From Conexibacter sp. SYSU D00693 (GTDB lineage: Bacteria; Actinomycetota; Thermoleophilia; Solirubrobacterales; Solirubrobacteraceae): a stretch of 64,000 bases of DNA. Positions 3,154 through 18,656 of this stretch are shown piece after piece. How positions within the stretch are numbered: position 1 is the first letter of the stretch; every line of letters starts with the position of its first letter. The notes beneath the pieces are model-generated. The model was not told where the DNA came from. It did not search any database and was given only the letters and a program-made list of their open reading frames with translations. The translations under genes and the position numbers were made by a program. The stretch spans positions 1,984,001 through 2,048,000 of the forward strand of contig NZ_CP070950.1 of assembly GCF_017084525.1 (NCBI RefSeq), given 5' to 3'.

Positions 3154-4662
3154 CTAGGGCGCGGCGCTCGCCCGGCGGTCCTCGAGGAGCAGGTGCTTGC
3201 GCAGCTTGCCGGTGTCCTCGCGCGGCATCCGGCGGACGAACTCCACGCTCCGGGGGCACTTGTAGCTGGCCATCCGCTGCCGGCAGAAGGCGATGAGCTC
3301 GGCCTCGAGCCACGAGCCCGCCAGAGCCATGTCGGTCGGCTGCACCACCGCCTTGACCTCCTCGCCCATCTCCGGGTGGCTGATCCCCACCACCGCCGCA
3401 TCGTCGACGTGCGGGTGCTCGGCGAGGAGGTCCTCGACCTCCTTGGGGTAGACGTTGACCCCGCCGGTGATGATCACGTGGGCCTGGCGGTCGGCGAGGT
3501 ACAGGTAGCCGTCCTCGTCGAGGTGGCCCATGTCGCCCATGGTCGTCCAGCCCGACGGGTGACGGGAGGCCGCGGTCTGCTCCGGCGCGTTGAGGTACTC
3601 GAACGCGTTGCCGCCTTCGAAGAACACCTTGCCGACCTCGCCCGCGGGCAGGTCCCGCCCGGCCTCGTCGACGATGTGCACGCGCCCGATGACCGCCCGC
3701 CCGACGGTCCCCGGCCGGTGCAGCCAGTCCTCGGAGGTCGCGGCGACGAACCCGTTGCGCTCGGTGCCCGCGTAGTACTCGTGGACGATCGGACCGAGCC
3801 ATTCGATGGCGGCCTCCTTGACCGCGGGTGGGCACGGCGCACCCGCATGCACCACGCACCGCAGCGAGCGCAGGTCGTACCTGGCACGCACGCTCGGATC
3901 GAGCGCCAGCAGGCGGACGAGCATCGTCGGCACGACCTGGGTGTGGGTCACGCGATGGCGTTCGACGGCGCGCAGGAACTCCTCGGCGTCGAAGCGGTCG
4001 AGCACCACGACGGCAGCTCCGCAGCGCAGCGCCGACATCGAGAACCGGAAGGGGGCGGCGTGGTAGAGCGGCGCGGCCGACAGGTAGACGCTCGACCCGT
4101 GCACCCCGTAGAGCGGACCGACCAGCCGGTCGAAGGCCGTCGGCGAGCCCGGCGGCGCGTCCGGGAGCGGGAACCTCACGCCCTTCGGCCGGCCGGTCGT
4201 GCCGGCGGAGTAGAGCAGGTCGATGCCCTGGGCCTCGTCGTCGACGGGATGCTCCGGTCGCCCGGCCACGGCCACGTCGTAGGCCTCGAACCCGTCGGCG
4301 GCCGGGCCGCACACCAAGCGGGTCTCGAGCGCGGGCGCCTGCGCCGCCGCAGGCACCGCCACCTCGGCCATCCGCGGTGTCGTGACCAGCGCCCGCGCCG
4401 CGCAGTCGGCGAGGACATAGGCCACCTCGGCCGGTCGCAGGCGCGTGCTGATGGCCGTGTAGTAGAGCCCCGTCCGCTGCGCGGCCCATGCGACCTCGAG
4501 GAAGCGCGGATGGTTCTCCATGAGGATCGCGATCCCGTCGCCGGTCTGCAGACCACGGCTGCGCAGGAGGTGCGCCAGCCGGTTGGACCGCCGGTCGAGG
4601 GCATCGTGGGAGACGGACTCGCCCGTGGCCGCCATCACGTAGGCCAGGCCGGTGCGCCTCAT
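3154..4662 (-). CDS. AMP-dependent acyl/aryl-CoA synthetase (ANL superfamily)
   Basis: 502 residues, full length for the family. Visible motifs: P-loop YSAGTTGRPKG (151-161), EYYAGTERNGF (A5 region), GDMGHLDEDGYLYLADR with the hinge aspartate, and the C-terminal acylation lysine in REDTGKLRK. It activates a carboxylic acid to its CoA thioester through an acyl-adenylate. Its ATG overlaps the stop of the upstream dehydrogenase (ATGA), so translation is probably coupled. In context the substrate is likely an aromatic or branched acid made by the nitrilase or dehydrogenases; the sequence alone does not settle it. Confidence 0.92.
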   Translation of the reverse strand: MRRTGLAYVMAATGESVSHDALDRRSNRLAHLLRSRGLQTGDGIAILMENHPRFLEVAWAAQRTGLYYTAISTRLRPAEVAYVLADCAARALVTTPRMAEVAVPAAAQAPALETRLVCGPAADGFEAYDVAVAGRPEHPVDDEAQGIDLLYSAGTTGRPKGVRFPLPDAPPGSPTAFDRLVGPLYGVHGSSVYLSAAPLYHAAPFRFSMSALRCGAAVVVLDRFDAEEFLRAVERHRVTHTQVVPTMLVRLLALDPSVRARYDLRSLRCVVHAGAPCPPAVKEAAIEWLGPIVHEYYAGTERNGFVAATSEDWLHRPGTVGRAVIGRVHIVDEAGRDLPAGEVGKVFFEGGNAFEYLNAPEQTAASRHPSGWTTMGDMGHLDEDGYLYLADRQAHVIITGGVNVYPKEVEDLLAEHPHVDDAAVVGISHPEMGEEVKAVVQPTDMALAGSWLEAELIAFCRQRMASYKCPRSVEFVRRMPREDTGKLRKHLLLEDRRASAAP

Positions 4663-5756
4663 GCGTCGACGAGCAGGACGGGCTTGACGACCTCGCCGCG
4701 CACCGCGGCCCCCTCCGCGTCGTTGATCGCCGAGAGGGGGAACGTCTCGACCAGGCAGTCGAAGGGGAAGCGACCCTGGCGCCACAGCTCGACGAGCTGC
4801 GGGACGAACACCCGCGGGACGACGCCGCCCTCGATGATCCCCATCACCGTCCGTCCTACGGCGAGGGCGCGACGGCCGAGCGTCAGGTCGCCGGTCGGGA
4901 TCCCGACCAGGCCGCAGACGCCCCGCGGCGTCAGCGACGCCACGGCGTCCGCGGCCACGGACGGGATGCCGGTCGTGTCCAGGGCGAAGTCGAAGCCGCC
5001 GGTGAGGCCCCGCAGCTGATCGACGAGATCGGGGGCCGCCGGGTCCATGGACCGGTGCGCGCCGACCCGCTCCGCGAGCGCGCGACGGCCCGCCCGCGGC
5101 TCGACGGCGACGACGGCGGCCGCCCCCGCGAGCTTGGCCGCCATGACCGCGGAGAGCCCCACCGCGCCTGCGCCGAAGACGACGACGTTCGCCCCCGCGG
5201 GCACGCGGAGCGCCTCGAGGACCGCCCCCGCCCCCGTCTGCACGCCGCAGCCCAGCGGGCCCAGCAGCTCGAGCGGGACGTCGGGTCCCACGGGCACGAC
5301 GTTGCGCGCCGCCACGACCGCGTGGGCCGCGAACGACGACTGACCGAACCACCGGTTGGCCACGGGTGCGTGCGCCCCGTCGACCATGGTCGTGGCGCCG
5401 TCCACGGCTCGCCCGGTGAGGTTGCGCTCGAAGAAGCTGTCGCAGGTCGACGGGCTCCCGGCCAGGCACCCGCGACAGCCGGCGCACGAGTCGAAGCTCA
5501 GCACCACGTGGTCGCCCACCCGGGGTTCAGCGACCCCCGGGCCGACCGCCTCGACCACCCCGGCGCCTTCGTGACCGGCCACCAGCGGGAACGAGACCGG
5601 TGCCTGCGGGCGGCGCGGGAACAGGTCGGTGTGGCAGAGGCCGACGCCCACCACGCGGACGAGCACCTCGCCCGCGGCAGGCTCCTCGAGGCGCACGTCC
5701 TCGAGCGCGAACGGCTGGTCGGGCCCCCGCAGCACGGCGGCGCGCGTGCGGATCAT
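4659..5756 (-). CDS. Zinc-dependent alcohol dehydrogenase (MDR family, aryl-alcohol type)
   Basis: 365 residues. Catalytic zinc ligands are C41 (GLCHTDL) and H62-E63 (GHEGAG), with a further cysteine in PLGCGVQTGAG. The structural zinc site is C91, C94, C97 and C105 (CAGCRGC...STC). A Rossmann motif GAGAVGLSAV follows. The pattern is that of class III-like and benzyl/aryl-alcohol dehydrogenases, which oxidise a primary alcohol to an aldehyde with NAD. It sits between P450 and acyl-CoA synthetase with 4-bp ATGA overlaps on both sides. The P450 product alcohol is a plausible substrate (inference). Confidence 0.92.
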   Translation of the reverse strand: MIRTRAAVLRGPDQPFALEDVRLEEPAAGEVLVRVVGVGLCHTDLFPRRPQAPVSFPLVAGHEGAGVVEAVGPGVAEPRVGDHVVLSFDSCAGCRGCLAGSPSTCDSFFERNLTGRAVDGATTMVDGAHAPVANRWFGQSSFAAHAVVAARNVVPVGPDVPLELLGPLGCGVQTGAGAVLEALRVPAGANVVVFGAGAVGLSAVMAAKLAGAAAVVAVEPRAGRRALAERVGAHRSMDPAAPDLVDQLRGLTGGFDFALDTTGIPSVAADAVASLTPRGVCGLVGIPTGDLTLGRRALAVGRTVMGIIEGGVVPRVFVPQLVELWRQGRFPFDCLVETFPLSAINDAEGAAVRGEVVKPVLLVDA

Positions 5757-7015
5757 CGGAGCTCGTAGCGGACGGGCAGCCGCTTGAGGCCGCCGACGAA
5801 CAGCGTGTGGACGCGGGCGGGCGGTCCCGCGAGCTCGATGCTCGCCAGTCGGGGCAGGAGCTCCCCGAAGAACTCGCGCAGCTCCATGCGCGCGAGCTGG
5901 GCACCGAGGCAGGCGTGGATGCCCGACCCGAAGGCGCGGTGGCGGTTGGGCCTGCGCGCGACGTCGAACTCGTCCGGGCGCTCGAAGACCTCCTCGTCGC
6001 GGTTGGCCGACGGGTAGCAGAGCGTCACCGCCTCGCCGGCGCGGATCGTCACACCGCGCAGGGTGTAGTCCTCGGTGGCGGTGCGCACGAACTGCTTGAC
6101 CGGTGAGACCCACCGCAGCATCTCGTCGACGGCCGTCGGGAGGAGCTCCGGCTCGGCACGCAGGCGCGCGAGCTGGTCTGGGTGCTCCAGGAGCGCCAGC
6201 AGGCCGCCCGAGAGCGTCGAGCTGGTGGTGTCGTGCCCCGCCGTGGCGATGAGCACGTAGTAGGACATCACCGCCATGTCGTCGAGCGGCCGCCCGTCGA
6301 CCTTCGCGTTGGCGATGACGGACGCGAGGTCTTCGGTCGGCGTGCGCCTGCGGTCGGCCGCGAGCTGCGAGAAGTACGCGAAGAAGTCCTCGAAGACCGC
6401 GAGGCGCTCCTCCGCCGACGCGCTGCGCCGCAGCTCGGGGTCCTGCTCGCCGAACATCTGCTGGGTGAGGCCCAGCATGCGCTCGAAGTCCGACTCGGGG
6501 AGGCCCAGGACCGAGAGGATCACCTGCAGCGGGTAGTGCATCGCGACGTCACGGACGACGTCGCACTCACCGGGCATCTCGGCCATCCGGGCCACGGCGC
6601 TCCGCGCCAGGTGGCCGACGCGCTCGTGGATGCGCGCCAGCCCGCGCGGCTGGAACCACGCCTGCGTGATCGCCCGGTGCGCGCGGTGCTCGGGCTCGTC
6701 CATGTGCACCAGCGAGCGGATCGGCGAGCCGCGCTGTGCCCGGAGGTGGTCGGCCTCGGCGGACTGGAGGATCGGCCGAGGGGCGTTGATGAAGACGTCG
6801 TTGCGGGCCTCGACCTCGGTCAGGTCGGCGTGCTTGGTGATCGCCCAGAACGGGTTGAAGCCCGGCGCCTCCACCCGGTGCACGGGAGACTCGCGCCGCA
6901 GCAGCGTGAAGACCTCGTGCAACAGACGCTCGTCGGCGTAGGTCGCGGGGTCCGTGAGTAGCCGCCCTGCCTCCTCCGGGCGCTGCACCGTCATGGTCGT
7001 GCTAGCCGCGGACAT
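5753..7015 (-). CDS. Cytochrome P450
   Basis: 420 residues, a soluble bacterial class I-type P450. I-helix oxygen-binding motif AGHDTT (259-264), ExxR with E298 and R301, and haem-binding loop FGSGIHACLG with Cys369. ATG at 7015 (MSAASTTMTV) follows a gggagagg ribosome site and overlaps the end of the HpaB-like gene by 14 bp. Longer in-frame starts lie inside that gene. No ferredoxin or ferredoxin reductase gene is nearby, so electrons must come from elsewhere. Probably hydroxylates an aromatic or aliphatic substrate of this operon. Confidence 0.93.
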   Translation of the reverse strand: MSAASTTMTVQRPEEAGRLLTDPATYADERLLHEVFTLLRRESPVHRVEAPGFNPFWAITKHADLTEVEARNDVFINAPRPILQSAEADHLRAQRGSPIRSLVHMDEPEHRAHRAITQAWFQPRGLARIHERVGHLARSAVARMAEMPGECDVVRDVAMHYPLQVILSVLGLPESDFERMLGLTQQMFGEQDPELRRSASAEERLAVFEDFFAYFSQLAADRRRTPTEDLASVIANAKVDGRPLDDMAVMSYYVLIATAGHDTTSSTLSGGLLALLEHPDQLARLRAEPELLPTAVDEMLRWVSPVKQFVRTATEDYTLRGVTIRAGEAVTLCYPSANRDEEVFERPDEFDVARRPNRHRAFGSGIHACLGAQLARMELREFFGELLPRLASIELAGPPARVHTLFVGGLKRLPVRYELR

Positions 7016-10935: not shown

Positions 10936-11084
10936 GGGTCACCTCGTCGTCAGGAGTGCCAGCGGTGGGGCGTGCGAGCCCGCATCGCCGCGATCGGGGG
11001 AGCCTACGAACGGGTCGGTGGCGCACGCTGTGGCCCGGTCACACGAGGTTGTCGCGCCCCGCCAGGCACGACGGCGGCGCGGCG
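10936..11084. promoter_or_regulatory. Divergent promoter region between nitrilase and homogentisate operons
   Basis: 149 bases separate the divergent starts of the nitrilase (10935) and the MBL-fold gene (11085). Both operons must be transcribed outward from here. I cannot name a -10/-35 box with confidence, and no clear long palindrome stands out. A PucR-type site is expected if the regulator at 1811-3121 acts here. Confidence 0.4.
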
Positions 11085-12080
11085 GTGACGCTGCCGGCCA
11101 TCACCACCTCACCTCCACCCGGGTTCGCGTCCACCGCGGACCTCACCGACAAGCCGGCGACGCTCGACGAGATCGTGCCCGGCGTCCTCGCGTACACGGC
11201 CGAGGGCGACCCGAACGTCGGCGCGATCGTCACGCCCGACGGCATCGTGGCCGTCGACGCGCGCGCCACCCCGGCTGCGGCCCAGCCGTGGCTCGACGAG
11301 CTGCGCCAGGTCACCGACGTGCCGGTGCGCCACCTCGTGCTGACCCACTTCCACGCCGTGCGCGTGCTGGGTGCGTCGGCCTTCGGCGCTCGGGAGGTGG
11401 TGGCGAGCGAGGCGACGCGCGAGCTCATCCGCGAGCGCGGCGCACAGGACTGGGAGTCGGAGTTCCGCCGGATGCCGCGGCTCGCCAAGGACCCGGGCTC
11501 CGTCCCCGGCCTCACGTGGCCGACGGTCACGTTCTGCGACCGCCTGACCCTGCGGCTGGGCGGCCGCACGGTGCAGCTGCGGCGGCTCGGCCGCGGGCAC
11601 ACCGGCGGCGACATCGTCGTGTGGCTCCCCGACGAGCGCGTGCTGTTCGCGGGGGACCTCGTGGAGGCGGGCGCCGCCCTGTACATGGGCGACGCGCACG
11701 TCGAGGAGTGGCGGACGCGCACGTTGGACGCCGTCGCCGCGATGGGCGCGCGGGCGCTGGTCCCCGGGCGCGGACCCGTGGTCCGGGGCGACGACGTCGG
11801 CCTCGCGATCGAGGAGTCGCGCCGCTTCCTCACGCGTCTGCGCGACGCGGTCGCGCGGGCGCGTGACGCGGGAGCCGACCTCCGGCAGGCGTTCGGCGCC
11901 GCCCACGAGGCGATGGCGCCCCACTACGGCGACTGGCCCATCTTCGAGCACTGCCTGCCCTTCAACGTCAAACGGGTGATGGACGAGCTCGACGGCCGCC
12001 CGCCGGCTGTCTGGACAGCCGAGACCGACGCCGCCGTCTGGCACGAGCTCTCGGCGCCGGCCCCCGACACGACCCCGTAG
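11085..12080 (+). CDS. Metallo-beta-lactamase-fold protein with altered zinc motif
   Basis: 331 residues from GTG at 11085 (VTLPAITTSPPPGF). The fold signature is present: GAIVTPDGIVAVDAR, H88 and H90 in LTHFHAVRV, H172 in GRGHTGGD, and D191 in FAGDLVE. The usual H-x-H-x-D-H motif reads H-x-H-x-V-R: the second-site aspartate and histidine are V92 and R93. A mononuclear or non-hydrolytic role is therefore possible. It leads the homogentisate operon with hmgA 13 bp downstream. Function unknown. An ATG at 10956 would give a longer but less likely protein. Confidence 0.82.
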   Translation: MTLPAITTSPPPGFASTADLTDKPATLDEIVPGVLAYTAEGDPNVGAIVTPDGIVAVDARATPAAAQPWLDELRQVTDVPVRHLVLTHFHAVRVLGASAFGAREVVASEATRELIRERGAQDWESEFRRMPRLAKDPGSVPGLTWPTVTFCDRLTLRLGGRTVQLRRLGRGHTGGDIVVWLPDERVLFAGDLVEAGAALYMGDAHVEEWRTRTLDAVAAMGARALVPGRGPVVRGDDVGLAIEESRRFLTRLRDAVARARDAGADLRQAFGAAHEAMAPHYGDWPIFEHCLPFNVKRVMDELDGRPPAVWTAETDAAVWHELSAPAPDTTP

Positions 12081-12093
12081 GAGCACTGCCCCC

Positions 12094-13266
12094 ATGCGCT
12101 ACCACCACCTCGGGCGGGTCCCGCCCAAGCGCCACGTCCAGGTCCGTCGCGACGGCGCCGGCTCGAGCCTGCTGGTGGAGGAGGTCCTCGGCTACGAGGG
12201 GTTCTCCGGCAACCACTCGATCCTCTACCGCCTGCGCTCGCCGTGCGCCGTCGAGCGCGTCGGCGAGTTCCGCGCGATCGACCGCGACGAGTGGGTGCCC
12301 CCGGCGCACGTCCATCGGCTCGCCGACCTCAACGGCGTCCCCGCCGGCGGCGACCCGGTCACGGGTCGCCGGCTGCTGATGGCCAACGCCGACATCGAGG
12401 TCTGGGTCTGCAAGCCCACGGAGCAGGGCGAGGGCTTCTACCGCAACGGCGAAGGCGACGAGCTCGTGTACGTCCATCGCGGCGGCGGCGTGTTGCGGAC
12501 GCAGTTCGGCCGAGTGGCGTTCCGTGAGAAGGACTACGTCGTGGTGCCGCGCGGGACCACCGTCGCCTGGGAGCTCGAGGACCGCGAGCAGTTCTGGCTG
12601 GTCTTCCACACCCCCGGCGAGGTCGAGACGCCGACCCGCTACCGCAACCGCTACGGGCAGCTGCTCGAGCACGCCCCGTTCTCGGCGCGCGACTTCCACG
12701 GGCCCGAGGAGCTCGAGACCCGCGACGAGGCGGGCGAGTTCGTCGTGGTGGTCCGCGTCCGCGACGGTCACCAGCGCTACGTGCTGGGCCGTCACCCCTT
12801 CGACGTCGTCGGCTGGGACGGCTACGTGTGGCCGTACACCTTCAACGCCCTGGACTTCGAGCCGCGCGCGGGACGCCTCCACCTGCCGCCCCCGGCACAC
12901 CAGACGTTCCAGGGGCCCAACTTCGTCATCTGCACCTTCGCTCCCCGGATGCTCGACTGGGACCCGGAGGCGGTGCCGCTGCCCTACCACCACTCGAACA
13001 TCCAGTCCGAGGAGGTCATGTTCTACGCCGACGGCGACTACACCGCGCGCCGGGGCGTCGGCGTCGGGTCCGTGACGCTGCACCCCTCGGGCCTGCCCCA
13101 CGGCCCGCAGCCCGGGACGGTGGAGGCCGCGTTGGGCGCCACGCGGACCGACGAGCTCGCGGTGATGTGGGACACGTTCCGGCCGCTGGCGCTCACGTCG
13201 CTCTGGCAGGCCCACGACCGCGACGAGTACGCCTACAGCTGGAACGACGCCGTCGACGCCGGCTGA
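12094..13266 (+). CDS. hmgA: Homogentisate 1,2-dioxygenase
   Basis: 390 residues. The iron ligands fall at the spacing of the human enzyme (H335, E341, H371): H300 in PYHHSN, E306 in SEEVMFY and H336 in PSGLPHGP. It opens the aromatic ring of homogentisate with O2 to give maleylacetoacetate. The protein is shorter than the 430-440-residue proteobacterial and eukaryotic forms, consistent with the compact actinobacterial type. An aggag site overlaps the stop of the preceding gene. Next come the unknown protein and fumarylacetoacetase of the same pathway. Confidence 0.95.
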   Translation: MRYHHLGRVPPKRHVQVRRDGAGSSLLVEEVLGYEGFSGNHSILYRLRSPCAVERVGEFRAIDRDEWVPPAHVHRLADLNGVPAGGDPVTGRRLLMANADIEVWVCKPTEQGEGFYRNGEGDELVYVHRGGGVLRTQFGRVAFREKDYVVVPRGTTVAWELEDREQFWLVFHTPGEVETPTRYRNRYGQLLEHAPFSARDFHGPEELETRDEAGEFVVVVRVRDGHQRYVLGRHPFDVVGWDGYVWPYTFNALDFEPRAGRLHLPPPAHQTFQGPNFVICTFAPRMLDWDPEAVPLPYHHSNIQSEEVMFYADGDYTARRGVGVGSVTLHPSGLPHGPQPGTVEAALGATRTDELAVMWDTFRPLALTSLWQAHDRDEYAYSWNDAVDAG

Positions 13267-13273
13267 GGGTCCC

Positions 13274-14158
13274 GTGGACGCGCGGTCCATCCTCCTGCGG
13301 GAGGCGATCGACGACGCCGGGCTGTTCCCGCCGGCGCGCAAGCCGCTGGCACGGGCCGTCGCCGACCACGGCGCGGCCCGCCGGTCGGCCGCGGGCTGGA
13401 TGCTCGGCCGCTTCCTCTGCCCCGTGTCGCGCCTGCGGGAGGCCGCCGGTGTGGTGCGGGCCCGATGGCCGCTGGGCGTCGTGCTCGACGCGGCGGGCGG
13501 CGACTGGCTGACCGGCGTCCGGAGCGACCTGGCGCTGTGGGCCAGCTCGGCGGGCTCCGCCTCGGCCACCGCCTTCGAGCTGCGCCTGCCCCACGACGCG
13601 GTCGACCGACCGGCGATCACGGACCTCGTGACGTGCCTGGAGCGCGCCGGGGTCGGCGACCGCATCGTCTTCCTGGAGGTGCCCGGGCACGACCCCGACA
13701 CCGTGCGGGCCGCGCTCGCATCGATCGCCCGGACGGCCGGCGGGCGGCGATTGGGGGCCAAGCTGCGCTGCGGCGGCGTCGTGGCCGAGGCGTTCCCGCC
13801 GTCGTGCGCCGTCGCGACGTTCATCGACGAGGCGCGGCGGCTCGGGCTCCCCTTCAAGGCGACAGCCGGGCTCCACCATCCCTTCCGCACGCGGGAGGCG
13901 GCGCTCGGGGTCCTCCAGCACGGCTTCGTCAACCTCCTCGCCGCCACGGCCCTGGTCGAGGCAGACCCGCTGGAGGTGGTCGAGGAGAAGGATCCGAGCG
14001 CCTTCCACATCGATGCAGACGGGCTCGCCTGGCGCGACCACCGCGCCGATGCGGCGGCGCTCGCGGCAGCTCGTCGGCGGTTCGTCGCCTTCGGCAGCTG
14101 CAGCTTCGACGAGCCCGTCGCCGACCTCGGGCTCGTGCTCGACGGGGCGACGCCGTGA
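13274..14158 (+). CDS. Conserved unknown protein between hmgA and fumarylacetoacetase genes
   Basis: 294 residues, not assigned to a named family by me. It starts 7 bp after hmgA and its stop overlaps the GTG of fumarylacetoacetase, so it belongs to the pathway operon. The C-terminal half is the most enzyme-like: LGAKLRCGGVVAEAFPPS, then FIDEARRLGLPFKATAGLHH and a closing FGSCSFDEPV. Conserved-looking K, C, H and D residues in beta-strand/loop settings suggest a TIM-barrel-like active site. No signal peptide or membrane segment. Position suggests maleylacetoacetate isomerisation or a related step, but this is inference only. Confidence 0.85.
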   Translation: MDARSILLREAIDDAGLFPPARKPLARAVADHGAARRSAAGWMLGRFLCPVSRLREAAGVVRARWPLGVVLDAAGGDWLTGVRSDLALWASSAGSASATAFELRLPHDAVDRPAITDLVTCLERAGVGDRIVFLEVPGHDPDTVRAALASIARTAGGRRLGAKLRCGGVVAEAFPPSCAVATFIDEARRLGLPFKATAGLHHPFRTREAALGVLQHGFVNLLAATALVEADPLEVVEEKDPSAFHIDADGLAWRDHRADAAALAAARRRFVAFGSCSFDEPVADLGLVLDGATP

Positions 14159-15360
14159 GCGGGAGCTGGGTCCCGGGGGCCGACCGGTCGGGCTTCGGGC
14201 TGACCAACCTCCCGTACGGGGTGGTCCGCCGCCGGGGCGCTCACCCGCGCTGCGCCGTGCGCATCGGCGACTTCGCGCTCGACCTCGGACGCCTCGTCGA
14301 CGCGGCGCTCCTCGACCTTCCCGCGGGGACGTTCGCCGGCACCACGCTCAACCGCTTCCTCGAGCTGGGTCCCGCGGTGTGGGCCGCGACGCGACGGCGG
14401 TTGACCGACCTCCTCACCGAGGGCGCCCCGGAGGCCGCAGCGGTGGGCGACGCCCTGGTGGCCCTCGGGGACGTCGAGGTCGTGATGCCGGTGGCGGTCG
14501 GTGACTTCGTCGACGGCTACGCCTCGCTCGAGCACGCAACGAACCTCGGCCGGATCTTCCGCCCCGACGGAGCGCCGCTGCTGGCGAACTGGCGCCACCT
14601 CCCGGTCGCCTACCACGGTCGCGCGGGCACGGTGGTCCCGAGCACGACGCCGATCCGGCGACCCCAGGGCCAGCGCCCACCGGACGCTCCCGGCGCCCGG
14701 CCGACGTTCGGGCCGGAGCGACAGCTGGACGTCGAGGTCGAGCTCGGCTTCGTCACCGGGGCCGGACCGGCGCTCGGCCGGCCGATCGAGATCCGCGACG
14801 TCGCCGACCACGTCTTCGGCGTCGTGCTGCTCAACGACTGGAGCGCCCGCGAGCTGCAGCGCTGGGAGTACCAGCCGCTCGGACCCTTCACGGGCAAGTC
14901 GTTCGCCACGTCCATCTCCCCATGGATGGTGCCGCTCGACGCGCTCGCGGGCCGCCGGGTGGCGGGGCCCGTGCAGGAGCCAGAGCCCCTCCCGTACCTG
15001 CGCACGCCGGAGCCGTGGGGGCTCGACGTGGACCTGGAGCTCGAGCTCAACGGCACGGTGGTCTCCAGGGTCAACGCGCGCGGCCTCTACTGGAACGTCG
15101 CACAGCTGCTCGCCCAGGCGACCGTCAGCGGCGCGACGGTGGCGGCTGGTGACCTGTTCGCCACGGGCACGATCTCCGGCCAGGGACCCGCCTCGCAGGG
15201 GAGCCTGGTCGAGCTGACCTGGGGCGGCCGGCAGCCGCTGCGTCTGGAGGACGGGACGCAGCGGACCTTCCTCGAGGACGGCGACGTGGTCGTGATCCGC
15301 GGGGCCGCGGGCGCGGTGTCGTTCGGGAGCGTCCGCGGCCGGGTCGAGCCCGCGCGGTGA
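14155..15360 (+). CDS. fahA: Fumarylacetoacetase
   Basis: 401 residues from a GTG that overlaps the previous stop (GTGA). Active-site residues match the mammalian enzyme: D120 and H127 in DFVDGYASLEHATN, E194 and E196 in LDVEVELGF, and D228 in LLNDWSAREL, followed by GKSFATSISPWM. The enzyme hydrolyses fumarylacetoacetate to fumarate and acetoacetate, the last step of homogentisate breakdown. Its own stop overlaps the start of the FAD monooxygenase gene by 4 bp. Confidence 0.95.
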   Translation: MSGSWVPGADRSGFGLTNLPYGVVRRRGAHPRCAVRIGDFALDLGRLVDAALLDLPAGTFAGTTLNRFLELGPAVWAATRRRLTDLLTEGAPEAAAVGDALVALGDVEVVMPVAVGDFVDGYASLEHATNLGRIFRPDGAPLLANWRHLPVAYHGRAGTVVPSTTPIRRPQGQRPPDAPGARPTFGPERQLDVEVELGFVTGAGPALGRPIEIRDVADHVFGVVLLNDWSARELQRWEYQPLGPFTGKSFATSISPWMVPLDALAGRRVAGPVQEPEPLPYLRTPEPWGLDVDLELELNGTVVSRVNARGLYWNVAQLLAQATVSGATVAAGDLFATGTISGQGPASQGSLVELTWGGRQPLRLEDGTQRTFLEDGDVVVIRGAAGAVSFGSVRGRVEPAR

Positions 15361-16970
15361 GCGGCCGCGGTCCGGACCAGGGGCCCGTCGTCGTGGTGGG
15401 CAACGGCCCCGTCGGCCAGACCGCCGCGCTGCTGCTGGCGCGCTGGGGCGTCCCCACCACCATCGTGGACGCGCGCGGCGGGCGCGACGGCGCCGGGTCG
15501 CGCGCCATCTGCCAGCAGCGCGACGTCCTGGACGTGTGGTCGGCGGTGGGCGCTGGGGAGCAGATCGCGCGGGAGGGCCTGGCGTGGGAGCGCGGCCGGA
15601 CCTTCTACGGCGACCGCGAGCTGTTCTGCACCACGTTCCCCGACCGCGGACGTTCGCCGTTCCCGCCCCTGGTCAACATCTCGCAGGCGCGGACCGAGCA
15701 GCTCCTGGACCAGGCCGTCGCCGCGTCGCCGCGCATCGACGTGCGCTGGGGGTCCGAGGTGGATGCGCTGACGCAGGACGACCACGGCGTCACGGTCGGC
15801 GGGCGCAGCCCGGCGGGGCGCTTCGAGCTCCGGGCGCCCTACGTCATCGCGTGTGCCGGATCGCGCAGCGACGACCTCCGGGCGGCGCTCGGGCTGGACT
15901 TCCCGGGCCGTACGTTCGACGAGCGGTTCCTCATCTGCGACATCCGCGCCGACCTCCCCGGCTGGCAGCGCGAGAGGCGCTTCTGGTTCGACCCGAGCTG
16001 GAACCCCGGCCGCCAGGTGCTGGTGCACCCCTGCCCGGGCGGCACGTACCGCATCGACTGGCAGGTCGCACCTGGGTTCGAGCTCGCGGGCGAGCGGGCG
16101 ACGGGAGGCCTGCACCGTCGCGTCCGCCAGATCGTCGGCGACCGGCCCTACGAGCTCGTGTGGACGTCGGCGTACCGCTTCCACTCGCGGCGGGTCCCGC
16201 GCATGCGCGTCGGGCGGGTGCTGCTGGCGGGCGACATGGCGCACCTCTTCTCGCCGTTCGGCGCCCGGGGGCTGAACTCGGGCGTCGCCGACGCCGAGAA
16301 CGCCGCCTGGAAGGTGGCGTTCGCGCTGCGCGGATGGGGCGGTGCGGCGCTGCTGGAGAGCTACGACCGCGAGCGCTTGGCCGCAGCGACGGAGAACCTC
16401 GAGGTCACCACGGCCACGATGGAGTTCCTCGTCCCCGCCGACGACCGTGCACGCCGGCGTCGCCGCGAGGTGCTCGAGCGCGCCCTGCTCGACCCCGCCG
16501 CGCGCACGGAGATCGACTCCGGCCGCTTCGCCGAGCCCTACTGGTACGTCGACTCGCCGCTGACGACCACCCATCCCGAGCGGACGTTCTCGGGACGCCC
16601 GCCGCGGGGCCAGGCCCCGCCGGTCGTCCCAGGGATCCTCGTGCCGGACGCGCCGGTCCGGGTCCCCGACCGCCCCGGCGTGACCCGGCTGCGCCAGCTC
16701 GTCCGCAGCGGCCTCCTGGCCCTCACGACCGACGGCGTGGAGCCCAGGCGGGCGCTGGGGACCCTGCGCCGGAGCGTCACCGCCCCGGTGCAGGCCCACG
16801 CACTGGCGTCGATCGACGTCGAGGGCGTCCTGGCCGAGGCGTTGCAGGCCAGGCGCGGAGAGACGTGGCTCATCCGCCCGGACGGCCACCTCGCCGCCGT
16901 CGTCGGGGATGCCTCGGACGCCCTCGAGGCCGCCGCCCGCCGCTGCCTGGGGATGGTCAGGCCCGCGTGA
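15357..16970 (+). CDS. FAD-dependent aromatic monooxygenase (class A, MhpA/PheA-like)
   Basis: 537 residues from a GTG overlapping the fahA stop. FAD-binding GxGxxG (GNGPVG, 15-20), a central substrate-binding region and the second FAD motif VLLAGDMAHLFSPFGARGLN followed by DAENAAWKVA. The thioredoxin-like C-terminal extension is in the right place for the phenol hydroxylase/MhpA branch. It uses NAD(P)H and O2 to hydroxylate a phenolic ring. Last in the homogentisate operon, it is a good candidate to make homogentisate from 3- or 4-hydroxyphenylacetate (inference). Confidence 0.9.
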   Translation: MSGRGPDQGPVVVVGNGPVGQTAALLLARWGVPTTIVDARGGRDGAGSRAICQQRDVLDVWSAVGAGEQIAREGLAWERGRTFYGDRELFCTTFPDRGRSPFPPLVNISQARTEQLLDQAVAASPRIDVRWGSEVDALTQDDHGVTVGGRSPAGRFELRAPYVIACAGSRSDDLRAALGLDFPGRTFDERFLICDIRADLPGWQRERRFWFDPSWNPGRQVLVHPCPGGTYRIDWQVAPGFELAGERATGGLHRRVRQIVGDRPYELVWTSAYRFHSRRVPRMRVGRVLLAGDMAHLFSPFGARGLNSGVADAENAAWKVAFALRGWGGAALLESYDRERLAAATENLEVTTATMEFLVPADDRARRRRREVLERALLDPAARTEIDSGRFAEPYWYVDSPLTTTHPERTFSGRPPRGQAPPVVPGILVPDAPVRVPDRPGVTRLRQLVRSGLLALTTDGVEPRRALGTLRRSVTAPVQAHALASIDVEGVLAEALQARRGETWLIRPDGHLAAVVGDASDALEAAARRCLGMVRPA

Positions 16971-17533: not shown

Positions 17534-18656
17534 ATGAGCTCCTCGAACCGTCGCGCCTACGGAACCGGCAGCCTCGAGATCCGCACCGACGGGTCGGGGC
17601 GCCAGACCTACTACGCCCGCTTCTACGCCCACGGACGCCAGGTCCGCGCGCCTCGGGCCCGCGCGGCGCGGAAACCAGCGCGCCGGCCTGACCCGCGCCG
17701 AGGCCGAGCGCGCGTTGCGCAAGCTCATCGAGCAGGAACAGCGGTTGGTGCCGGTGGCCGAGCGCGTCGACATCGCCACCGCCGGCGAGCGCTACCTCGT
17801 CCATCTCGAGCAGGTGATGCAGCGCAAGCCCAGCACGCTGCAGGACTACAAGGTCATGCTGCGCCGCCACATCGCGCCGTTCTTCGGCGGCCGCTCGCTG
17901 GAGCGCATCGACACCCAGCTGGTCTCGGAGTTCCTGCTGGCCCAGCAGGCCAAGGGCATGGCGACCAAGACGGTCGCCAACCACCTCACGTTCCTGCACG
18001 GCGTCTTCCGCCACGCGATGAAGAAGGGCTGGACGCACACCAACCCCGTCGCCGCGGTCGACCGCCCCCGCGACCAGCACGTCGATCCCGACATCCGCTT
18101 CCTCGAACACGAAGAAGTCGAAGCACTCCTGCGGGCCGTCCCGGACGACGCCCTGGGCCGAGTGGAGCGGGTCCTGTACCTCGTCGCCGCCACCAGCGGG
18201 CTGCGCCAGGGCGAGCTCGTAGCCCTGCGATGGCGGGACGTCGACTGGACCGCCGGCGTGATCCGCGTTCGGCGCAACTACACCCGAGGCGAGTGGGGCA
18301 CCCCGAAGTCCCGGCGCTCCAGCCGCGCCGTCCCGATGATCACCCGCGTCGCCGCAGAGCTCGAGCGCCTCCACCAGCACTCGGCCCACCAAGGCGATGA
18401 CGACCTCGTCTTCGCCCACCCCATCCTCGGCGGCGTTCTCGACGCCTCCAAGATCCGCAAGCGCTTCAAGGCCGCCCTCACCGCCGCCCGGCTACGACCG
18501 ATCCGCTTCCACGACCTGCGCCACACCTTCGGCACCCAAGCCGCCGCCGCCGGCGTCCCCCTGCGCACCCTTCAAGAGTGGATGGGCCACCGCTACAAGA
18601 CCACCCTCATCTACGCCGACTACGCACCCCGCGCCCACGAACAAGCCCTGATGTAA
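17534..18656 (+). pseudogene. Tyrosine recombinase/integrase with a frameshift near the N-terminus
   Basis: An ATG at 17534 with an aggggac site opens MSSSNRRAYGTGSLEIRTDG and continues through YYARFYAHGRQV, an arm-binding domain start. The rest of the protein (RLGPARRGNQRAGLTRAEAE... to the stop) is in the +1 frame. Removing one base in the cgcgcg run near 17648-17653 restores one frame of about 370 residues. The core-binding and catalytic domains are intact: R in SGLRQGELVALRW, K in TPKSRRSS, HDLRHTF, GHRYKTT and the nucleophile Y in IYADY. It could be dead, a sequencing error, or partly active from an internal TTG at 17715. Confidence 0.85.

Follow-up and report, generated by a model that had tools for sequence, protein, structure and literature searches.

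An unnamed protein family encoded next to fahA as candidate maleylacetoacetate isomerases of bacteria without GST-type MaiA

Degradation of homogentisate, as it would proceed from the operon considered here, comprises three steps: HmgA would open the ring to give maleylacetoacetate, this intermediate would be converted to fumarylacetoacetate, and FahA would cleave the latter to fumarate and acetoacetate. In a 64,000-nucleotide stretch of Conexibacter sp. SYSU D00693 DNA (NZ_CP070950.1, positions 1,984,001 to 2,048,000; the window below) the genes for the first and third steps lie close together, the GST-type isomerase MaiA is absent from the cluster, as the initial annotation had already remarked, and the place between hmgA and fahA is occupied by an open reading frame designated here as X. 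Is X the enzyme of the middle step, and how firmly is it bound to the pathway?

The description of X as a 294-residue frame set between hmgA and fahA by a 7-bp gap and a 4-bp overlap is borne out (hmgA ends at 13266 and fahA starts at 14155). Along the + strand the spacings of hmgA, X, fahA and the FAD-dependent hydroxylase gene are +7, -4 and -4 bp (Table 1), and the hydroxylase gene, overlapping fahA by 4 bp, is probably co-transcribed with it. The fahA product exceeds the curated TIGR01266 cut-off (415.6 versus 375.3 bits). The HmgA of the window exceeds the Pfam gathering scores of PF20510 (31.1 bits; 20.2 required) and PF04209 (27.6 bits; 21 required) and stays far below the cut-off of TIGR01015 (56 versus 510.75 bits). 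The integrase gene just 3′ of the X operon may mark the edge of a mobile island. On the 5′ side, the minus-strand genes between 5753 and 10935 encode a P450, an aldehyde dehydrogenase and a Nit6803-like nitrilase (under the NCBIfam cut-off), possibly for peripheral aromatic or nitrile degradation.

Table 1 Features of the X operon and its surroundings. Coordinates are those of the window; residue numbering and counts refer to X of the window and to the alignment of 28 X sequences.
Feature	Coordinates	Strand	Evidence
Metallo-beta-lactamase-fold hydrolase, 5′ of hmgA, first codon unsure	10956-12080	+	PF00753
hmgA-type gene, short divergent homogentisate 1,2-dioxygenase family, 390 aa	12094-13266	+	PF20510, PF04209
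Gene X, candidate maleylacetoacetate isomerase independent of glutathione, probably a (beta/alpha)8 barrel	13274-14158	+	ORF, 294 aa, GTG start
X motif D13-x-A15-...-F18-P19-P20, N-terminal, near expected first strand	13310-13333	+	D13, A15, P19, P20 28/28; F18 27/28
X Glu102, end of predicted strand (model 100-104)	13577-13579	+	27/28, Asp in remaining row
X Glu135, end of predicted strand (model 131-135)	13676-13678	+	28/28
X motif K163-x-R165-x-G167-G168, proposed active-site Lys and carboxylate-binding Arg	13760-13777	+	K163 27/28, R165 28/28; model strand 160-165
X motif K195-x-T-A-G-L-H201-H202, proposed active-site Lys and His	13856-13879	+	K195, T197, G199, L200 28/28; H201 27/28; model strand 194-197
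X motif G274-S-C276, proposed active-site Cys	14093-14101	+	G274 28/28, C276 27/28
fahA, fumarylacetoacetase, 401 aa, GTG start	14155-15360	+	TIGR01266
FAD-dependent aromatic hydroxylase, PRK08132 type	15357-16970	+	NF006002 443.5 bits vs cut-off 416
Tyrosine-type integrase	17715-18656	+	PF00589, 99 bits

The low TIGR01015 score of HmgA would suit a cluster that degrades another hydroquinone, X then isomerising an analogue of maleylacetoacetate, and so would the flanking PRK08132-type hydroxylase and metallo-beta-lactamase-fold genes, which according to tblastn mapping recur with X at loci L033, L035 and L036. However, Priestia has an HmgA of this short family, 46% identical, together with hppD, X and fahA, and in the part of PMC6193087 drawn on here mutants show that a short B. 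thuringiensis HmgA (1,173 bp) acts on homogentisate; we regard the other substrate as improbable. The metallo-beta-lactamase-fold and hydroxylase pair also recurs with hmgA at locus L118, which has no X, and these two genes perhaps represent a conserved route that supplies homogentisate from an aromatic acid.

Single-sequence and profile searches of X against Pfam, NCBIfam, PHROGs and PDB sequences returned chance-level matches only (best NCBIfam row, E 0.21). On sequence comparison X is nevertheless a member of a conserved family without a name. Its relatives in other genomes and phyla share roughly 30-54% protein identity with it, and since X is conserved as a protein across genomes and phyla, and lies 5′ of fahA wherever the two are linked, the reading frame is real beyond chance. 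Its members come from four phyla, Actinomycetota, Chloroflexota, Bacillota and Cyanobacteriota. A four-row profile, with the best 5 candidates per genome scored, detected X in 21 of 396 Actinomycetota genomes, and a 28-row profile in 15 of 301 Chloroflexota genomes; a scan with a degenerate pattern detected it in the Chloroflexi genome OHK40, and tblastn on 24 of 72,556 plasmid records. The plasmids come from Streptomyces (11), Priestia (6), Pseudonocardia (2), Rhodococcus (2), Tsukamurella, Nonomuraea and Kovacikia (1 each). Wherever an existing annotation of X was encountered it read "hypothetical protein", and the viral contigs searched contained no X. Close to home the gene is rare, being present in 4 of 101 near-relative genomes, that of the window included, and in none of the 6 other genomes of the same genus, which points to horizontal gain.

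Could an orthodox isomerase be encoded elsewhere in these genomes? The initial annotation had named a needed MaiA homologue elsewhere in the genome as what would speak against its proposal; in the single 4.43-Mb contig of the window genome the best TIGR01262 matches, GST-like proteins, scored 50.3 and 43.0 bits where the cut-off asks for 171.05, and the MDMPI_N domain of mycothiol-dependent maleylpyruvate isomerase was not found. MaiA over the cut-off was likewise detected in none of 50 Actinomycetota genomes carrying fahA or X and in none of 9 X-bearing records or genomes, while both Pseudomonadota controls were positive in the latter search. In these controls, records of Sphingobium and Acinetobacter, maiA lies directly 3′ of fahA. 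The X-bearing cyanobacterium encodes GSTs below the MaiA cut-off (up to 87 bits); as cyanobacteria as a group use glutathione, X is not a strict marker of glutathione-free organisms. On a Streptomyces plasmid (L059) a coding sequence annotated as maleylpyruvate isomerase N-terminal domain (positions 4361-5017) lies about 1 kb 5′ of X-fahA, so that both kinds of putative isomerase are seen in one place. X itself is no disguised member of these families at the level of sequence: X and 19 relatives gave no match to GST families, and X none to PF11716 or DinB domains, at E <= 1.

The attachment of X to fahA was examined in 46 loci other than the window, 22 of them from Actinomycetota genomes, 9 from plasmids, one from OHK40 and 14 from other Chloroflexota. 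In 43 of them fahA follows X directly on the same strand, with gaps of approximately -73 to +202 bp, mostly between -60 and +60, many of the pairs overlapping by a few bases; the order fahA-then-X does not occur among the 46. The three exceptions (L033, L147 and L150, the last two from Chloroflexota genomes) have X without fahA nearby and fahA on another contig of the same genome. Because hmgA adjoins X at some loci and lies elsewhere in others, it is fahA that appears as the fixed partner. The co-occurrence of X with fahA, part of a survey that the initial annotation had recommended, proved strong. With fahA called at E <= 1e-60, it is present in 49 of the 396 Actinomycetota genomes and in 20 of the 21 that have X (Fisher p 2.4e-19, kinship ignored), and in 24 of the 301 Chloroflexota genomes and all 15 that have X (p 1.6e-19, kinship again ignored). 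The lone X genome without fahA (G357) is a 590-contig assembly in which a fragment of X stands at a contig end. On plasmids, fahA was matched in 115 records; the 60 of them that were listed include 23 of the 24 X records, and the remaining X record (Kovacikia) has fahA beside X. The other listed fahA records comprise one of Nocardia farcinica without X and 36 from Pseudomonadota genera, none of which is among the X records, as far as the listed matches go.

X and FahA have also diverged in step. Their pairwise distances correlate with r 0.88 over 41 loci, and in the 15 loci that have hmgA as well r is 0.80 for X and FahA and 0.65 for X and HmgA. In a FahA tree of 81 rows (quick method; here and in the distance tests rows outside length limits were left out) the distribution of X requires at least 13 changes, of which well-supported branches force at least 9, which implies that X has been gained or lost repeatedly and has still stayed attached to fahA. 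The surroundings tell the same pathway: hppD-hmgA-X-fahA in Tsukamurella, hppD-X-fahA-hisC-hmgA in Priestia, hmgA-X-fahA followed by genes for CoA transferase A and B in Streptomyces Alt3, a cupin (hmgA)-X-fahA on Rhodococcus pNit and pN1, and hmgA-X-fahA in Pseudonocardia. The Tsukamurella, Priestia and Streptomyces loci are pathway sets in which the isomerase is the only missing enzyme. Because X is linked to fahA in four phyla, co-occurs with it in genomes, is found where MaiA is absent and takes a slot resembling that of maiA in Pseudomonadota, it is very likely, as far as comparison of sequences and gene order can tell, that X has a role at or near the step from maleylacetoacetate to FahA.

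Gene context alone does not tell whether X isomerises these intermediates or acts on them in some other way. X might hydrolyse maleylacetoacetate, remove a toxic by-product or, with a Schiff-base lysine, act in the manner of acetoacetate decarboxylase; the linkage fits any enzyme tied to FahA, conserved lysines of X suit Schiff-base chemistry, and a maleylacetoacetate hydrolase has been reported for some Bacillus, as cited in the part of PMC4457819 drawn on here. Against this, direct hydrolysis would deprive FahA of its substrate, yet X almost never occurs without fahA; in Streptomyces Alt3 CoA-transferase genes next to X-fahA already take care of acetoacetate; and isomerisation is the step that has no enzyme. 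A function of this kind other than isomerisation therefore seems unlikely to us.

The conservation pattern of X was derived from the 28-row alignment (Table 1). Alignments A2 and A3 omit the fragments L046 and L052, the degenerate L049 and the near-identical L037, and A3 also omits the Nonomuraea sequence L062. Invariant in all 28 rows are D13, A15, P19, P20, E135, R165, P175, K195, T197, G199, L200, G217, R267, G274 and P281, while each of K163, H201, C276, E102, H216, N220, G167 and G168 is replaced in a single row. This pattern bears on whether X could be a partner of FahA or HmgA that does no catalysis itself, such as a chaperone, a channelling subunit or a regulator. Translational coupling with fahA through the short overlaps, and the closer tracking of FahA than of HmgA, would be expected of such a partner, but enzyme-like Lys, Arg, Glu, His, Cys and Gly residues are fixed at predicted strand ends from Actinomycetota to Bacillota and Cyanobacteriota, and 38 genomes of the two draws possess fahA without X, which makes a purely structural or regulatory X very improbable. 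Two sequences depart from the pattern: X of L034 (positions 4905-5834), in an hmgA-X-fahA arrangement, lacks K163, H201 and C276 all together, and X of L049 (4721-5662), beside fahA, lacks the lysine, histidine and cysteine motifs. As the motif residues vanish together, we prefer to read both as putative degenerate copies rather than as a sign that the residues are not needed; a functional shift of X is the alternative.

What fold would carry these residues? The initial annotation had pointed to TIM-barrel relatives as something that structure prediction might reveal. Two models, each built from a two-row alignment, favour such a fold and are both of low confidence, with mean pLDDT 49.3 and pTM 0.53 for X of the window and 58.9 and 0.63 for X of OHK40 (L005). 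Strands and helices alternate in both, and E102, E135, K163/R165 and K195 lie on or end successive strands. With these low-confidence models most of the top Foldseek "pdb" rows are TIM barrels, with a best E of 3.3e-3 and none below 1e-3. VIA-align matched the OHK40 model to the deoxyribose-phosphate aldolase (DERA) 2a4a_B (Z 10.9, rmsd 4.3, 199 residues aligned), which ties with other TIM barrels, and the low-confidence window model to DERA 1n7k_A (Z 9.7, rmsd 4.2, 184 aligned), with DERAs recurring down the list. A viral fold library gave nothing significant with the X model. Fold families missing from these lists may still be related to X. The models thus suggest that X is probably a TIM barrel, (beta/alpha)8. 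Homology of X and DERA by sequence was considered and rejected: the hhalign probability was 0.3%, and X had no match to TIGR00126 or the DeoC Pfam family at E <= 1. The crude profile alignment, which placed K195 on the strand-7 lysine of DERA and K163 away from that of strand 6, was set aside as well, a circularly permuted DERA having scored equally.

Taking these observations together, we consider it moderately probable that X is a maleylacetoacetate cis-trans isomerase unrelated to GSTs, serving a homogentisate pathway without GST-type MaiA. X would convert maleylacetoacetate to fumarylacetoacetate and leave the cleavage to the FahA made from the overlapping or closely spaced gene. The chemistry would need no added thiol: Lys163 or Lys195 may form an iminium with the ketone beside the cis double bond and so allow the bond to rotate, or Cys276 may attack the double bond in the manner of maleate isomerase, with the same outcome, and Arg165 and the histidines would hold the carboxylates. 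A more far-reaching reading takes X as a family of cofactor-free isomerases with a DERA-like barrel and a lysine iminium or cysteine mechanism, which replaces MaiA non-orthologously and spreads with fahA, on plasmids too, through at least four phyla; in it, FahA of lineages that lost X may take maleylacetoacetate directly. This reading is offered tentatively, as possible rather than probable.

The proposal in the initial annotation of a glutathione-independent isomerase or helper thus stands as far as a role near the maleylacetoacetate/FahA step is concerned; it is tempered by the X carrier among the cyanobacteria and by the many fahA genomes that have neither X nor MaiA. X is not detectable in 29 of the 49 Actinomycetota and 9 of the 24 Chloroflexota genomes with fahA, and is thus no general requirement of an HmgA-FahA pathway that lacks MaiA. 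None of the 29 actinobacterial genomes, 15 of which belong to one family (f27), has MaiA over the cut-off, and tblastn of the fahA loci of the 9 Chloroflexota found no MaiA near the gene. X therefore appears dispensable in some settings. Profile re-search of 33 genomes (the 29 and 4 X carriers) returned for the 29 no more than two rows, both at chance level (E 0.006 and 0.0098), unfiltered hmmsearch of 22 and 11 loci revealed no hidden X near fahA, and clustering of predicted genes at 23 loci, with crude gene calling that missed several fahA and with clusters lacking annotation, recognised no shared alternative gene.

No gene separates hmgA from the fahA that follows it in G040 and Nocardia farcinica. 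The same direct succession without X is seen at L122 and L123, from the window's own family, and at L113 and L126; the FahA proteins of L122 and L123 are unusual and long-branched and match TIGR01266 only from about position 60. In genomes without X either FahA takes the cis isomer, or cellular thiols isomerise it, or another enzyme does so. The depth of FahA from the midpoint root has a median of 1.33 without X (17 rows) and 0.94 with X (29 rows; p 0.004, on a thinned set in which kin rows are not independent), and a deeper FahA in genomes without X would fit a changed enzyme, which is suggestive only. FahA position 184 was tried as a specificity site and rejected, since this best separator of the two groups likely reflects kinship.

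X is a concrete, small and expressible candidate for a named gap in the tyrosine breakdown of bacteria without MaiA, and we propose that this new and unnamed family performs a known job. If this is true, X explains the use of tyrosine and homogentisate in many Actinomycetota and Chloroflexota, gives a name to a family that pipelines label as hypothetical, and adds a glutathione-free cis-trans isomerase to known chemistry. The natural operons without X raise the question of whether the cis isomer is itself a substrate of some FahA enzymes.

For Bacillus the gap has been described in print. The portions of PMC4457819 and PMC6193087 drawn on here describe the maleylacetoacetate isomerase gene as unidentifiable in Bacillus anthracis and B. 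thuringiensis, and the operon they give, hppD-fahA-hmgA, is without X. The open-access literature searched names no glutathione-free maleylacetoacetate isomerase. For the analogous step of the gentisate pathway the actinobacterial answer is the mycothiol-dependent maleylpyruvate isomerase, whose MDMPI_N/DinB-like family consists of helical bundles and acts on maleylpyruvate; X differs in having no PF11716 match, and MDMPI_N is missing from the window genome. Maleate cis-trans isomerase, of the Asp/Glu racemase superfamily, needs no thiol cofactor and uses a cysteine of the enzyme, which is one chemistry proposed for Cys276, but X matches neither PF01177 nor any such family.

DERA, one of the class I Schiff-base TIM barrels, with its Schiff-base lysine K167 on strand 6 and a helper lysine, K201, on strand 7, is the recurrent, best-tied structural match of both low-confidence X models, in the same N- to C-terminal register. 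The 32 residues between K163 and K195 of X, on consecutive predicted strands, compare with 30 in DERA (alignment A7). X differs in lacking a significant sequence relation to DERA and a phosphate sugar context, and it has about 55 extra residues after the K195 strand. MaiA, or GST zeta (TIGR01262), described in the part of a recent review drawn on here (PMC10950700) as a glutathione-dependent maleylacetoacetate isomerase, differs from X in its sequence, its predicted fold, its need for glutathione and its position 3′ rather than 5′ of fahA; what the two would have in common is the proposed reaction and the slot next to fahA.
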